A stretch of DNA of 32,180 nucleotides. Origin: Candidatus Brocadiia bacterium (GTDB lineage: Bacteria > Planctomycetota > MHYJ01 > JACQXL01 > JACQZI01). A program made the translations under genes and the position numbers. A model generated the notes under the pieces. That model did no database searches. It was not told where the DNA came from and worked only from the letters and a program-made list of their open reading frames with translations. Shown here one piece after another: positions 1-24,352 of the stretch (positions are counted from its first letter, which is position 1; each line of letters begins with the position of its first letter). The stretch lies in assembly GCA_020051675.1 (NCBI GenBank), contig JAGVQN010000115.1, positions 1 through 32,180 on the forward strand, read 5' to 3'.

Positions 1-553
1 CGTATCGGGACGCCCGATCGATTAAAGTTGGTAGGGGCGGGCTGGGTTCTGTAAAAGTTACCCCGCCTTGCGGGGTTACACCGCGGGTTACAATGAGGTT
101 ACGGAGGCGGCCCCGGCATTCGGCAGGACGACCGATTATTTATTATTGAATGTATCCCGACACTGCCGGTCGGGACGTCACTGCGTTCCGGAATGGTCGG
201 ATGGCTGATTAATTCTGGTAGATGTACCCCGACGTTCGTCGGGACGTCGCCATGGCTCCGGAGCCGGGATGCTGGATTATTTGAAGTATTCTGGATTAGA
301 ATACGTGCGCGTAAATGTTCTTGGATGGTTTATATAATTAAAAGAGAACACGAATTGCACGAACCTGCCCGAATGGATCGTTCAGGCGGGTGGGACGAAT
401 ACCACGAATATAAATTCTTATTAGTGTGATTCGTCTTTATTCGCCCCCCGACATTCGTCGGGGGACTCCCTATTAATCGGGGTCCCGCGGAGCGGGGTGT
501 TTAATCTTCTGGTCGTCCCGAATGTCTTGCCCAGTAGCACAGGGAGTTTTTGC

Positions 554-7445: not shown

Positions 7446-10280
7446 TTATTCGCCTACCTTGGTCGGCGTGGTTTTATCCGTGTAATCATTCACCCCTAAT
7501 TGGCCCAGGTCGTTAAGCCCCCATGTCCAGATGGTGCCGTCATTTTTCAGCGCGATATTATGCCGGCTTCCGGTGGATATCATTGACCAAGTGGTTAATA
7601 CGCCGATTTTAGTCGGGATAAGCTTGTTTGTTCCCTCGCCGCTATCACCCAGTCCGAGTTGCCCGTGATTATTAAATCCCCATGACCATAATGTCCCGTC
7701 ATTTTTGATGGCAATGGAATGATATTCGCCGGCTGAAATCTTTGCCCAGTCGGAATCCGTTCCCACGCGCACCGGCGTGTTCCTGTTTGCGGTATCGTCC
7801 AGCCCCAATTGTCCGTAGTTATTGATTCCCCAAGCCCAAAGCGACCCGTCTGATTTTATCGCTAAGGTGTGGTATTTACCTCCGGCAATCATATTCCAGT
7901 TTGTCGCGCTTCCGACCTGTGTCGGGGATGTCCTTTCCGTTCCGGCGCCGCTGTTCCCTAGCCCAAGTTGTCCGTATTCATTATGCCCCCATGCCCATAA
8001 AGTCCCGTTAGTTTTTATGGCCAGCGTGTGATAACGCCCGGCCGTTATTTTCAGCCAGTCCGTGGCGCTCCCCATTTGCGCCAGGATTGTTCTTCTGGTA
8101 TAATCTCCGAAGCCGAGTTGGCCGAATCCGTTATATCCGCATGACCAGATTGAGTTGTTGTTTTTCCTGATGATGGAATGGAATTCTCCTACCGCGATAT
8201 CTATCCAATCCGTTGACGAAGGATTTGTTATTTGTTCCGGGGTTATTTTCTCCGCTCCGCTTCCCCAGACGATAAGCCCTAATTGACCGTCGCTGTTAAA
8301 TCCCCACGACCAGATCGAGCCGTCTGTTTTTACGGATAGATTATGGTAACTTGCGGCTATGACCGTATCCCAGTTATATAAAGCGCCGATGCGTGTCGGC
8401 ACGCTTTTATTGGTCCCGGTGCCTTTGGTTCCAAGTCCCAGTTGCCCGTCATCGTTATCGCCCCAGGACCAGATGCTGTTATTACTGGCAACGGCTATGC
8501 AATGGGAGTATCCGGCAGAGACTTTCAGCCAGCTGCCGTTTGTCGTATTGCTTGAAGTGTTTGAGGCGGCGCTGTCCCCGAACCCGTTGTATGCCTTGAC
8601 GAGGTAATAATATGTTGTCAGCGGCGAAAGCCCGGTGTTGGAATAAGAAGTTATATTGGCGTCAAGCGTGGCAATTTGGGTGTAGTTTCCGTTGCTTCCT
8701 ATCTTGCGCCATATTTTAAATCCGAGTTCGTTTGAAGAATTATCGAACCATCCCAGGTCAATCTGGGAAAGTGATACGACCGTATTGGTCAAGGTGGTGG
8801 GCGCGGCCGGTATCCCGGTTGCCGGCGCCGGTTCGTCGCGGTTATCGTTATCATTAAGCCCTAATTGTCCTAAATCATTTTTACCCCAGCTTGAGATGGT
8901 CTTATTGTTTTTTAAGGCAATTGAATGGTAATCACCGGTCGTGACCGCAATCCAATTTGTCTCCGAGCCGACTTTTGCCGGAGCGGTCCTGCTTATCGTA
9001 TCGTTCAGCCCTAATTGCCCGTAGTCGTTATTTCCCCATGCCCAGAGTGTTCCATCTGTTTTTATCGCCATCGTATATCCGTTACTTATTGAAACAGTTG
9101 CCCAGTTTGTTTCGGTGCCGACCCTGGTCGGAGTTGTTCTGCTTATGGTATCGCCTAACCCTAATTGCCCGGAATCGTTTTTGCCCCACGCCCAGAGTGA
9201 ACCGTCTGTCTTTATGGCAAACGTATAACCTTTGCACGCGGCGGCGGTTGCCCAATCCGTATCGGTCACTACTCTTGCCGGGGCTGTTCTGCTTAAAGTA
9301 TCGCCTAACCCTAATTGCCCGGAATCGTTTTTGCCCCATGCCCAGAGTGTTTTATCCGCCTTTATGGCGACGGCGTAGCTCTCTCCGGCGGAAACTTTAT
9401 CCCAGTCCGTATCGCTTCCTATTTTAGAAGGGGAGTCTTCGTTATCCGTATTTCCCTTTCCCAATTGCCCCCAATCGTTTTTACCCCATGACCAGAGTGT
9501 CTTGTCGTTTTTGATGGCAAGTGAATGGAAGTCTCCGGCGCCGAATACTTTCCAGTCGGTATCGCTCCCGATTTGCGCCGGCTGTGTTTTGGTTATGGCG
9601 TCGTTAACGCCCAATTGCCCGAAGTCGTTCCTGCCCCATGCCCAGAGCGTGCCGAGTGTTGTCAGGGCGAGGGAGTGGCCGGAAGAGCCGGCGGCTATTT
9701 TTGACCAGTTGGAAGCGCTCCCTATCTTTACCGGTCCGGATCTCGCGGTCGTATCGCCCAGCCCCAATTGTCCGTGTGAATTGCCGCCCCATGACCAGAT
9801 AGTCCCGTTAGTCGCAATTGCCAGGGAGTGTTCTCCGCCCGCGCTTACTTCTGACCAGGCGTCGTAGGTGGTCGCCGTTGCCTCGTTGGAATAATCACTG
9901 TAACCGTAAGGATTATAGCTCCTGATTCTGTAATAATAAGCGGTTGAAGGCATCAGCCCCGTATCCGAAAATGCTATGACATTCGGACCGACCGCCGCAA
10001 TCTGCCCGTAAGTTCCGCCGGCTCCGGTTTTGCGCTCTATCTTGAATCCGGTTTCGTCCAAAGAGGCGTCTGTCCAGGAAAGGTTAATCTGTGATGTGTT
10101 GACGGCGTTTGCGGCCAGCGATAGCGGTATGTTCGGAACCGTGAGAGCGCCGCTGCTTCCCGCGGTTGTAGTATCGTCGTCATTGTCTTTATCTTTGGAC
10201 CAGCAGCCTTTAGCCCCGGTAAAAAAGGCAAGGGCAAAGGAAATCAGAAGAGTGATTGTAATCAATATTCGTGTCTTCAT
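7446..10280 (-). CDS. secreted RCC1-repeat protein with two fibronectin type III domains
   Basis: 944 aa; N-terminal hydrophobic signal; two FN3 segments (PLSLAANAVNTSQINLSW..., APTTLTNTVVSLSQIDLGW...) each followed by seven W.W/GQLG repeat units. Confidence 0.85.
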   Translation of the reverse strand: MKTRILITITLLISFALAFFTGAKGCWSKDKDNDDDTTTAGSSGALTVPNIPLSLAANAVNTSQINLSWTDASLDETGFKIERKTGAGGTYGQIAAVGPNVIAFSDTGLMPSTAYYYRIRSYNPYGYSDYSNEATATTYDAWSEVSAGGEHSLAIATNGTIWSWGGNSHGQLGLGDTTARSGPVKIGSASNWSKIAAGSSGHSLALTTLGTLWAWGRNDFGQLGVNDAITKTQPAQIGSDTDWKVFGAGDFHSLAIKNDKTLWSWGKNDWGQLGKGNTDNEDSPSKIGSDTDWDKVSAGESYAVAIKADKTLWAWGKNDSGQLGLGDTLSRTAPARVVTDTDWATAAACKGYTFAIKTDGSLWAWGKNDSGQLGLGDTISRTTPTRVGTETNWATVSISNGYTMAIKTDGTLWAWGNNDYGQLGLNDTISRTAPAKVGSETNWIAVTTGDYHSIALKNNKTISSWGKNDLGQLGLNDNDNRDEPAPATGIPAAPTTLTNTVVSLSQIDLGWFDNSSNELGFKIWRKIGSNGNYTQIATLDANITSYSNTGLSPLTTYYYLVKAYNGFGDSAASNTSSNTTNGSWLKVSAGYSHCIAVASNNSIWSWGDNDDGQLGLGTKGTGTNKSVPTRIGALYNWDTVIAASYHNLSVKTDGSIWSWGFNSDGQLGLIVWGSGAEKITPEQITNPSSTDWIDIAVGEFHSIIRKNNNSIWSCGYNGFGQLGFGDYTRRTILAQMGSATDWLKITAGRYHTLAIKTNGTLWAWGHNEYGQLGLGNSGAGTERTSPTQVGSATNWNMIAGGKYHTLAIKSDGSLWAWGINNYGQLGLDDTANRNTPVRVGTDSDWAKISAGEYHSIAIKNDGTLWSWGFNNHGQLGLGDSGEGTNKLIPTKIGVLTTWSMISTGSRHNIALKNDGTIWTWGLNDLGQLGVNDYTDKTTPTKVGE

Positions 10281-12554: not shown

Positions 12555-12597
12555 TATAAATATTCCCTTTCGTAAGTAAGCTGATTTAGCCCCACTC

Positions 12598-12652
12598 CTC
12601 CCGCCTTGCGGGATTCGGGGACACCCAATTATAGGAAGTCCCAGAATGGGGC
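12598..12652. repeat. dispersed palindromic element, copy B
   Basis: CCCGCcttGCGGG hairpin followed by ATTCGGGGACACCCAATTATAGGAAGTCCCAGAATGGGGC; homologous to 17635-17674 and 21878-21922. Confidence 0.7.
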
Positions 12653-12893
12653 AGATTGGGCTGATTTTACGGAATGAAGTAAATGGTTCTTTTCCGCTTA
12701 ATCAGCTTAATCCGCGTACTAAAAGCATTTAATATAATTATCGGCTCTTAAAACCTTATATATAAAGAGTAAATCAGATAATTAAATTATACACTTAATT
12801 AGGCAAAAGGTCAACTGAATTCGGAACGAAGTGACGTCCCCCGCAGCGCAGCGGAGCGGGACTCCGGAGGCGGGGTGGTTTATATGATTTTCA

Positions 12894-16783: not shown

Positions 16784-18163
16784 TTATCTTCCCAATCCTT
16801 TAAACTTTCCCATGAGCTTGCCCATTTTACCGGCGTTGCCCATATCCTTCATCATTTTCTGCATTTCCCTGAACTGCTTGAGTAGGCTGTTGACCTGTGA
16901 AACCGAGGTGCCGGAGCCGCGGGCAATACGCGCCCGGCGGGAGCCGCTGATTATTTCCGGGGTGGCGCGTTCTTCTTTGGTCATGGATTGGACAATCGCC
17001 TCGACCCGCTTCATTTCCTTATCATCCACCTGGTTGATTGCTCCGCCCATTCCGGGAATCATTGCCAGGAGGTCTTTTAACGGGCCCATTTTCTTTATCT
17101 GCTGGAGCTGGTCAAGGAAATCCTGTAAGGTCAGCTCCTGCTTCCGGAGTTTTTCCTCCAGTTTCTTGGCTTGTTCCATATCCACGTTTGCCTGGGCTTT
17201 TTCAACCAGGGTGACGATATCGCCCATGCCGAGTATCCGGGAGGCCATGCGGTCAGGATGGAACTCCTCGAAGTTATCTATTTTCTCGCCGATGCCGACG
17301 AATTTAATCGGTTTGCCGGTAACGGCTTTGATGGAAAGCGCCGCGCCGCCGCGCGCGTCGCCATCCAGCTTGGTGAGTATTATTCCGGTTAGGGCGAGTT
17401 GTTTATCGAATTCCGCCGCGCTTTTGACCGCGTCCTGCCCGGTCATGGCGTCGGAGACCAGGAAGATATTGCCCGGCTTTATGCGGGCGGCGATTTGTTT
17501 CAGTTCGTCCATCAGTTCTTTATCGATATGGAGACGTCCGGCGGTATCGACGATGACCGTATCGCGGTTGGTTTCCCGGGCGGTGTTGAGGGCTTTTTCG
17601 CAGAGCTTCGGCGGGAAGCTCCCGCTCCGCTTCGCTTCGGGGGCACCCGATGATAGGGAATCCCAGAATGGGGCGCCCGGCTCTGAATAAACCGGCAGCT
17701 TAAGCTGGGCGCCGAGCGTTTTAATCTGTTCAATGGCGGCCGGGCGCTGGATATCCGCCGCGACCAGGAGCGGTGTCTTTCCCTTTTTCACCAGATATTG
17801 CGCGAGCTTGGCGCAGGTGGTCGTTTTTCCGGAACCCTGCAAGCCCGCCATCATGATTACGGTCGGCCCGCCGGGATTGAAATTTATCGAGTAATCGGGC
17901 GGTCCCATAAGGCGCGCCATTTCGTCATAGACTATTTTCACTATCTGCTGTCCGGGAGAGATGCTCTGGATGACTTCCTGCCCGACGGCACGCTTGGTGA
18001 CGGTATCAATAAAATCCTTGACGACTTTGTAATTTACATCCGCTTCCAGCAAAGACATGCGCACTTCGCGCATTCCTTCCTGGATGTTTTTCTCTGTGAG
18101 TTTGCCGCGGCCGGTAAGTTTGCGGAAAGTTGCTTGGAGTTTTTCGGTAATTGATTCAAACAT
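16784..18163 (-). CDS. ffh: signal recognition particle protein Ffh (SRP54)
   Basis: 459 aa; GLQGSGKTTTCAKLA, DIQRPAAIEQ, DTAGRLHIDKELMDEL, TKLDGDARGGAALS, M-domain IPGMG and SRRARIARGSGTS; carries an apparent 19-20 aa insertion before DTAGR. Confidence 0.96.
   Translation of the reverse strand: MFESITEKLQATFRKLTGRGKLTEKNIQEGMREVRMSLLEADVNYKVVKDFIDTVTKRAVGQEVIQSISPGQQIVKIVYDEMARLMGPPDYSINFNPGGPTVIMMAGLQGSGKTTTCAKLAQYLVKKGKTPLLVAADIQRPAAIEQIKTLGAQLKLPVYSEPGAPFWDSLSSGAPEAKRSGSFPPKLCEKALNTARETNRDTVIVDTAGRLHIDKELMDELKQIAARIKPGNIFLVSDAMTGQDAVKSAAEFDKQLALTGIILTKLDGDARGGAALSIKAVTGKPIKFVGIGEKIDNFEEFHPDRMASRILGMGDIVTLVEKAQANVDMEQAKKLEEKLRKQELTLQDFLDQLQQIKKMGPLKDLLAMIPGMGGAINQVDDKEMKRVEAIVQSMTKEERATPEIISGSRRARIARGSGTSVSQVNSLLKQFREMQKMMKDMGNAGKMGKLMGKFKGLGR
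17614..17674. repeat. dispersed palindromic element, copy C, inside the ffh reading frame
   Basis: CTTCGGGGGCACCCGATGATAGGGAATCCCAGAATGGGGC aligns with intergenic copies B and A; encodes PFWDSLSSGAPEAKRSGSF on the - strand. Confidence 0.7.
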
Positions 18164-21767: not shown

Positions 21768-21877
21768 GTTGATTTAGCGGGACGAGATATTCATATAAAC
21801 CAACCCGACCCCGGAGTCCCGTCCCGCTCTTCCCGCTTTGTCCCTAGATCCTGAATATCTTGGGATCTCAGGACGGG

Positions 21878-21922
21878 ATTCGGGGACATCCCGACATGCT
21901 GTCGGGAAGTCCCCGAATGAGG
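21878..21922. repeat. dispersed palindromic element, copy A
   Basis: ATTCGGGGAC-a-TCCCGAC-atgct-GTCGGGA-a-GTCCCCGAAT: 17 bp stem with one A/A mismatch; homologous to copies B and C. Confidence 0.8.
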
Positions 21923-22056
21923 CCACGCTCCCTACAGTCGCTCGCAATTACAGAAGAAGCATTTCGCAAAAGTTCAGTAAATAGCATACCAAATATGATA
22001 AACTATGACATACCCCCATACCGCCACCCCCCATACCCCTCAGCGCCAAGGTTTAT

Positions 22057-22322
22057 ACCCCCTTCGGCCAGTAAGCGTATCCCCTTAGGCCAGTAAGCGT
22101 ATCCCCTCCGGCCAGTAAGTGTAGCCCATCCGGCCAGTAAGTGTACCCTATCCGGCCAGTAAGTGTACCCCATCCGGCCAGTAAGTGTAGCCTATCCGGC
22201 CAAGAAGTGTACCCCATCCGGCCAAGAAGTGTACCCCATCCGGCCAGTAAGTGTAGCCTATCCGGCCAGTAAGTGCACCCCCTCCGGCCAGTAAGTGTAC
22301 CCCATCCGGCCAAGAAGCATAG
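22057..22322. repeat. tandem array of 12 x 22-bp units
   Basis: GGCCA starts at 22066, 22088, 22110, 22132, 22154, 22176, 22198, 22220, 22242, 22264, 22286, 22308: exact 22-bp spacing; consensus GGCCAGTAAGTGTACCCCATCC. Confidence 0.97.
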
Positions 22323-22371
22323 CCGTCATCTTCAAAAAACATTTTCAGTGTTATAATTTTTCTCTTGCCTC

Positions 22372-22768: not shown

Positions 22769-24352
22769 TTAAGACTTAATTATCTTCTCGGCTTCGGCTT
22801 TATCTACATCCATCGCGTAAGTGATGCCGCTGATATCGGTCGCTTCCTTGGTCAGTGACATCAAATCATCGCGGGAGATATTATCCAGCGTGAACTTCCT
22901 GCAGCCGGCCATCAACTGCCGTAATCCTTGAGCCAACCTTTCATAATAGGTGTAAAGCCCGATAGCGCCGGTGGGGAGTTTTTCGAATTCCGCATCGCCA
23001 AGTTCCTTGCGCAGGGAAGCGGCGGTCACAAAGATTTCGTCTTTGCTTGAGCCGAACCTTTCCACATAAACCGGCAGCTGATTTTCATCTATCGCGCGGC
23101 CGATTGTTTTACCGACCATTGCCGCGGCTATCGGGGCGCGGGCCATGCCGATCATCTTGACAAACGGGGCGCCCATTGAAAGCCCCTTGAAAATCTGGTC
23201 TTCAAAACTAAAGCCGCCGCCTACGGCAATCGCCGGCAGGTGTGCTTTCTTTTCAGCCAGCATTTTGGCATATTTGTAAACGAGCGAGTGCAGTTCGACC
23301 GGAGGAACGCCCCATTCATTCATCATCTTCCAGGGGCTCATGCCGGTTCCGCCGCCTGCCGCGTCCACGGTCAGGAGGTCCAGTTTATATTTGGAGGCGA
23401 ATTTCATGGCCAATGCCAGAGCGGCCGGGCGGTAAGCGCCGGTTTTCAGGAAGATATACTTGGCGCCTGCCTTGCGCAGTTCTTCCACGCGTTGGGCAAA
23501 ACCTTCTTCGGAGACCATGCCGACCCTGGAATGGCGCTCGAATTCCTTAAAGGCGCCTTTTTCAAACGCCTTGATAACGTTCGGGTCCATCGGGTTAGGC
23601 AGCAAGACATAACCGCGGTCGTAGAGCATCTGGGCTTTCTTCAAATCCCGGATTTTCACTTCACCGCCGATATTCTTCGCGCCCTGACCCCATTTCAACT
23701 CCACGCAGGTGACGCCGAGCTTTTCAATGGCGTATTCCTGGACGCCCAAGCGGGTATCTTCGACATTCGCCTGGACGATAATCGCGCCGTAACCGTCGTG
23801 CTGGCTGTCCATATAAAGCTTTACCCTGCGCTTTAAATCTACCGTATCCATGACACGGCCATTTTTAATGACAGCCTGCGGGTCCATGCCGACGACGTTT
23901 TCTCCGATGGTTAAGGGCGTCCCCGAAATAGCCGAGCCGATTGCCAGTCCTTCCCAGTTATTCTTAGCTATATCGGTCGAGCCGATGCCGGAAATCACCC
24001 ACGGATATTTAAATTTCAATCCTTTATCATGCCCGATAGCCAGTTCCAGCTTGACGTTCGGGAAAATGGCCTTGTCGCTATCCGCTTCGATTCCCTGCGC
24101 GCCGATTACGCCGCTGATGATATTGAAATGTGAATAATCGACCGGATATGCTTTTTCGCCGGCTGAAGTGATGACGCCAAATGGCTGGGGATAAATGACT
24201 TCATGCCCCCGGTAGGCGGATTTGCCGATTTCGCACATGCCGATGCATCCATCCACGCATGTTGCGCACATGCCGGATGCCGGTATGACCGAGCCTTCGG
24301 TCCTGTTTTTGGTCAGGGTGGCCGCTGTTGCATTCGTCTTCGAGAGTGACAT
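22769..24352 (-). CDS. FMN-binding-domain glutamate synthase-like protein (stand-alone, GltB2-like)
   Basis: 527 aa; AAGGGTGMSPWKMMNEWGVPPVELH, AVGGGFSFEDQIFKGLSMGAPFVKMIGMARAP; no N-terminal amidotransferase domain; N-terminal CATCVDGCIGMC. Confidence 0.85.
   Translation of the reverse strand: MSLSKTNATAATLTKNRTEGSVIPASGMCATCVDGCIGMCEIGKSAYRGHEVIYPQPFGVITSAGEKAYPVDYSHFNIISGVIGAQGIEADSDKAIFPNVKLELAIGHDKGLKFKYPWVISGIGSTDIAKNNWEGLAIGSAISGTPLTIGENVVGMDPQAVIKNGRVMDTVDLKRRVKLYMDSQHDGYGAIIVQANVEDTRLGVQEYAIEKLGVTCVELKWGQGAKNIGGEVKIRDLKKAQMLYDRGYVLLPNPMDPNVIKAFEKGAFKEFERHSRVGMVSEEGFAQRVEELRKAGAKYIFLKTGAYRPAALALAMKFASKYKLDLLTVDAAGGGTGMSPWKMMNEWGVPPVELHSLVYKYAKMLAEKKAHLPAIAVGGGFSFEDQIFKGLSMGAPFVKMIGMARAPIAAAMVGKTIGRAIDENQLPVYVERFGSSKDEIFVTAASLRKELGDAEFEKLPTGAIGLYTYYERLAQGLRQLMAGCRKFTLDNISRDDLMSLTKEATDISGITYAMDVDKAEAEKIIKS

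Follow-up and report, generated by a model that had tools for sequence, protein, structure and literature searches.

The ffh gene in the DNA that we analysed (a stretch of 32,180 nucleotides, below called the window) carries a hairpin-rich segment of 54 bp in frame. It is very likely that this segment is one of the copies of a short palindromic element, mobile but non-autonomous, which has multiplied in the genus, and that the in-frame copies of this element are translated as loops. The window is contig C60 of G000, a partial draft genome of 1.2 Mb that is 57% complete, and the only genome of the same genus compared with it was G001, a draft that is 97% complete. In a tree of Ffh sequences (18 rows) the phylum of the window groups with a Sedimentisphaerales sequence (Planctomycetota) with a support of 100/98, and the genus is therefore referred to as Planctomycetota-like.

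The host gene, at 16784..18163 on the minus strand, encodes the signal recognition particle protein and scores 583 bits against the TIGR00959 equivalog, as compared to a cut-off of 473. Its product is 459 aa long and that of G001 441 aa, and apart from the 54 bp the two are colinear and 95% identical. The element occupies 17620..17673 (minus strand), which is an exact 54-bp gap against the G001 gene (nhmmer E=6e-18), and adds 18 aa (APFWDSLSSGAPEAKRSG) directly after VYSEPG. The preliminary description had correctly pointed out an extra in-frame segment in Ffh, but placed it at 17614-17674 and made it 19 aa long. It had also set the alignment of Ffh from relatives as a test in advance, and the insert turned out to be absent from G001, from the other 15 aligned relatives of the order, class and phylum, and from 10 distant Ffh proteins. 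Outside the insert, dN between the window and G001 is 0.030 and dS 0.63 (dN/dS about 0.05), which implies that ffh is under purifying selection.

The insert is positioned in the G domain, between a strand (E158-159) and a helix (184-197), and in solved Ffh structures the segment at this site is much shorter. An AlphaFold2 model of the protein (mean pLDDT 74, alignment of 11 sequences) gave values below 50 for residues 163-181, flanked by the well-modelled strand and helix, and the insert is thus best taken as a predicted disordered loop. The tryptic peptides predicted from this region are LPVYSEPGAPFWDSLSSGAPEAK and SGSFPPK.

A covariance model of the element, built from 21 copies, had at least 134 matches in G000 and at least 133 in G001 at E<=0.1, 106 and 99 at E<=0.001, and 64 in each genome at E<=1e-6. 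With the same model, the other seven genomes of the order had 0 matches at E<=0.001 and 21 other genomes of the class 0 at E<=1e-6, and the repeat in ffh can therefore not be attributed to chance. With the ffh element as query, blastn at E<=1 gave 42 matches in G000; at E<=0.01 there were 24 in G001 and 0 in the 38 other relatives. In the stretches that were examined, 135 element clusters were located. The elements form a dispersed, hairpin-rich repeat family that is restricted to the genus, and the genome-wide search with the core that had been proposed earlier yields over a hundred copies, many of them in frame within genes.

Two forms of the element can be recognised, a long form close to GCCCC-ATTCT-GGGACTCCCTATTATCGGGTGTCCCCGAAACGAAGTGGAGCGGGGC and a short form, GGCGCC-H1-GGGACTCCCTATCGTCCCGCGGAGCGAAGCGGAGCGGGGC, where H1 and the following GGG complete a hairpin. 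The sequence of H1, the 5' hairpin, varies among the copies while the pairing is kept; variants are CCCCCGAC-GTT-GTCGGGGG, CCTTGCC-TGCC-GGGCAAGG and CCCTGCCC-GCC-GGGCAGGG. The mean fold energy of H1 in 65 copies is -8.57 kcal/mol, as compared to -5.78 kcal/mol with the 3' arms exchanged (z -11, with 0 of 5000 shuffles as stable), and part of this result may reflect subfamily structure. These swapped-arm energies were used instead of an earlier pairing statistic with longer arms, which was weak. Single consensus copies fold unremarkably, with z from -2.6 to +0.4, and the structural claim therefore rests on the covariation. Extra hairpins can nest in the 3' arm, for instance at 12588-12652 in the window, and some short-form copies are enclosed by CTCGCAATGAC...GTCATTGCGAG arms. 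Clean inserts are 54-57 bp, and longer composites of 75-120 bp are also present.

Ffh included, 23 sites in G000 and G001 have in-frame copies within conserved genes, the host genes being recognised by NCBIfam or Pfam models, many above curated cut-offs, or by a colinear sister gene. In G000 these are Ffh, ThiL, BioB, IspD, MetG (two), MurG, MurF, GuaA, the pyruvate carboxylase subunit B / OadA type, and HdrA2-like, spermidine-synthase-like, thymidylate-synthase-like and DUF58 proteins. The hosts in G001 are PheT, GpmI (two), RsmA, CysS, a XerC-like recombinase, an ECF sigma factor, a KdkA-like kinase and the orthologue of the 1295-aa ORF of the window. The element is read in different frames, giving DSLSSGAPEAKRSG, GLPIVPRSEAERG and YNRVSPEQSGAG in sense and APLRFAPRDDRESL in antisense. 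In both genomes, elements are found at a corresponding position of the NfeD-type protease genes, immediately behind the signal peptide (G000:C87:2706-2795 and G001:C10:234405-234458). These elements differ in structure and frame between the genomes, and perhaps go back to an old insertion that underwent remodelling later on.

A net difference of 57 bp between G000 and G001 was observed at seven further sites, in thiL, metG (site 1), hdrA, the DUF58 gene, gpmI (site 2), the xerC-like gene and murG, and other aligned host-gene sites show differences of 3n or local replacement. The thyA-like copy is present in both genomes and thus predates their split. A target-site duplication was sought at the clean junctions, where at most 0-3 ambiguous G-rich bases were found.

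An insert in this position could also be a lineage-specific functional loop, formed by ordinary expansion or under positive selection. The site lies in the insertion-box region, which is unique to SRP GTPases, and two of the aligned Ffh proteins have additions of 1-3 residues near it, unrelated to the insert. However, the closest other copies elsewhere in the genome are 91% identical to the insert at the DNA level, and its peptide pattern DSLSS...KRSG is also found in unrelated proteins such as ThiL, which makes such an origin very unlikely.

That the element is simply translated in Ffh is suggested by the reading frames. The intragenic inserts that allowed a judgement lack stops and have lengths divisible by three, which speaks for translation rather than for splicing or a bypass by the ribosome. 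The census had started from ORFs that span the element, and for this reason a separate frame-blind control was run, taking all elements that have a long open frame on either side, in any frame. In-frame, stop-free cases dominate here too, and the few shifted or stopped ones look like junctions between neighbouring genes; among the elements flanked by long open frames there was no convincing case of a conserved gene interrupted out of frame. In yeast mitochondria, mobile hairpins are bypassed in translation, and with this precedent, the hairpin structure and the covarying stems in mind, one could imagine that the element, although transcribed, is taken out of the RNA or passed over by the ribosome, and that the Ffh produced lacks the extra residues. 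Such a process would relax the demand for 3n length and open frames, contrary to what the judgeable copies and the two-gene appearance of the few frame-shifted cases indicate, and we regard it as highly improbable. A repeat-induced misjoin in the metagenome bin might be suspected in a fragmented genome with a highly repeated family, but it is barely conceivable that the insert is such an assembly artefact, as the sequence on either side is colinear with a single uninterrupted gene of G001, the junction is exact and in frame, and the same kind of insert occurs in many genes of two separate genomes.

A translated mobile palindrome, the reading that we prefer, would have had the following history. 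The element would have multiplied in this genus, entering intergenic DNA as well as genes, and out-of-frame or harmful insertions would have been purged, leaving stop-free inserts of 3n length (54 bp here, often 57 bp) that may simply be translated as surface loops. The Ffh copy was most likely gained after the split from G001, and would have added an 18-residue disordered loop to the GTPase domain with a presumably near-neutral effect. The word mobile, used in the preliminary description, is backed here by presence and absence between the two genomes; transposition would be the route of spread, most likely by way of a transposase that acts in trans and recognises the hairpin DNA.

A search with PF01797 found an IS200-like Y1 transposase TnpA of 143 aa in G000 (G000:C94:202-633), which has hairpin ends of its own (CGCCTGTAAAGGCG), and in G001 a truncated RAYT-like ORF of 83 aa (MPRIARAVVVDYPHHIIQRGNNRQ...; G001:C32, L203:1489-1740, minus strand), probably a remnant of a REP-associated transposase. 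With these as the only finds, a RAYT as the mobiliser is unsupported, and by this search no transposase could be assigned to the element family in G001 or in the 57% complete G000. There is also a copy of the element about 400 bp downstream of the IS200-like gene.

The 57-bp short form consists of 19 codons, is stop-free in four or five of the six frames, and has most of its copies in ORFs. Of 20 short-form copies that we examined, roughly one half lie in members of known gene families, and the others mostly in unvalidated ORFs. We consider it rather doubtful that the short form is specialised, as a mobile element, in living within genes; if it were, it would spread through coding DNA largely by avoiding damage, not by avoiding genes. 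Five open frames were also considered as an unusual property in themselves, but this was rejected, as 20-62% of composition-matched shuffles are equally open.

The Rickettsia palindromic elements (RPEs) were reportedly described by Ogata et al. in 2000. They occur as many palindromic copies in the genome, many of them in frame within conserved genes (PMC3767692, PMC2229807, PMC10969869), and an enzyme that carries one, guanylate kinase, is translated and active (PMC2229807, PMC3767692). The element found here resembles them in being multi-copy, palindromic, in frame within conserved genes and absent from the orthologues. However, RPEs are about 100-150 bp and belong to the low-GC Rickettsiales, whereas this element, compared with them by description only, has clean inserts of 54-57 bp and is GC-rich and from another phylum. 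The likeness to RPEs that had been put forward thus stands as an analogy, but not as membership, since the size differs.

Short palindromic repeats (REPs) with a CGTC tag, including RPE-4 and RPE-6 (Di Nocera et al. 2013), are both intergenic and intragenic and have no dedicated transposase, and within genes their dimers or groups encode 20-30 aa (PMC3733652). The five phyla listed with CGTC repeats do not include Planctomycetes, and both CGTC and GTAG REPs have been found within genes, in R. conorii, Opitutus terrae (which has intragenic GTAG REPs) and others (PMC3733652). In those REPs the tag (CGTC, or else TGTC or CCTC) is unpaired and lies at one end of the stem. Our element may have a counterpart of it, the short form reading TATCGTCCCGC...GCGGGG and the long form GGGTGTCCCCG; in both forms CGTC or TGTC stands before the 3' stem, but is internal to the double element. 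The CGTC REPs have AT pairs next to the tag and an unpaired CCA tail, whereas our element lacks both, its stem being CCCGC/GCGGG or CCCCG/CGGGG, and unlike them it is built of double-hairpin units of 54-57 bp. It shares with REPINs and the GTAG REPs that depend on RAYT the inverted pair of hairpins, the non-autonomous nature and a copy number in the order of a hundred (PMC8049555, PMC3733652), but its consensus has no GTAG tag, and the truncated ORF in G001 was the only RAYT-like gene found in G001 and the 57% complete G000, none being intact. By its behaviour the element is of the same kind as RPEs and intragenic REPs, and we file it neither as an RPE nor as a REP.

Rickettsia is the best-known case of in-frame 'selfish' palindromes in essential proteins, and some other genera are reported to have intragenic REPs. 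The same outcome is seen here in a Planctomycetota-like genus, with a sister genome that provides clean empty sites. Two questions thereby become testable: by what means hairpins this short can move when no dedicated enzyme is obvious, and to what extent essential enzymes can accommodate the sudden gain of a loop of 18-19 residues. A published REPIN model takes insertion into a gene as destroying it (PMC8049555), and the element family looks like a counter-example to this assumption.

The window itself also contains intergenic copies of the element. The one reported earlier at 12613-12652 was confirmed (E=2e-12) as part of a long-form copy at 12588..12652 on the minus strand (E=6.7e-12), with a nested CCCGCAAGGCGGG hairpin in its 3' arm; this copy folds at -38.7 kcal/mol into an outer stem and two inner hairpins. 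Another copy, at about 440..497 on the plus strand (nhmmer E=1.1e-5), has the hairpin CCCCCGACATTCGTCGGGGG and the core GGGACTCCCTAT, and a counterpart resembling it is found at G001:C16:3202. The second copy proposed earlier, at 21878-21922, is indeed related, but weak and diverged (21877..21922, minus strand, nhmmer E=0.0018), with an enlarged central hairpin, and at 12839..12861 on the plus strand there is a fragment of the 3' arm (nhmmer E=0.0043; 92% over 24 bp). An Rfam search of the window gave no match. A second dispersed repeat of 43 bp (AGCGGGACTCCGGAGGCGGGGTGGTTTATATGA), inverted and 84% matching, is located at 12850-12892 and 21786-21828; it adjoins element fragments and is possibly a composite of hairpin modules. 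It was also possible to observe a 22-bp unit (about TAAGTGTACCCCATCCGGCCAG) in tandem at 22012-22363, with at least 11 copies in register in intergenic DNA beside the ORF at 22769-24352, and, at 7446-10280, a protein of 944 aa that has long arrays of repeats with a period of about 150 bp, which by eye look RCC1-like, as well as fibronectin-like stretches.
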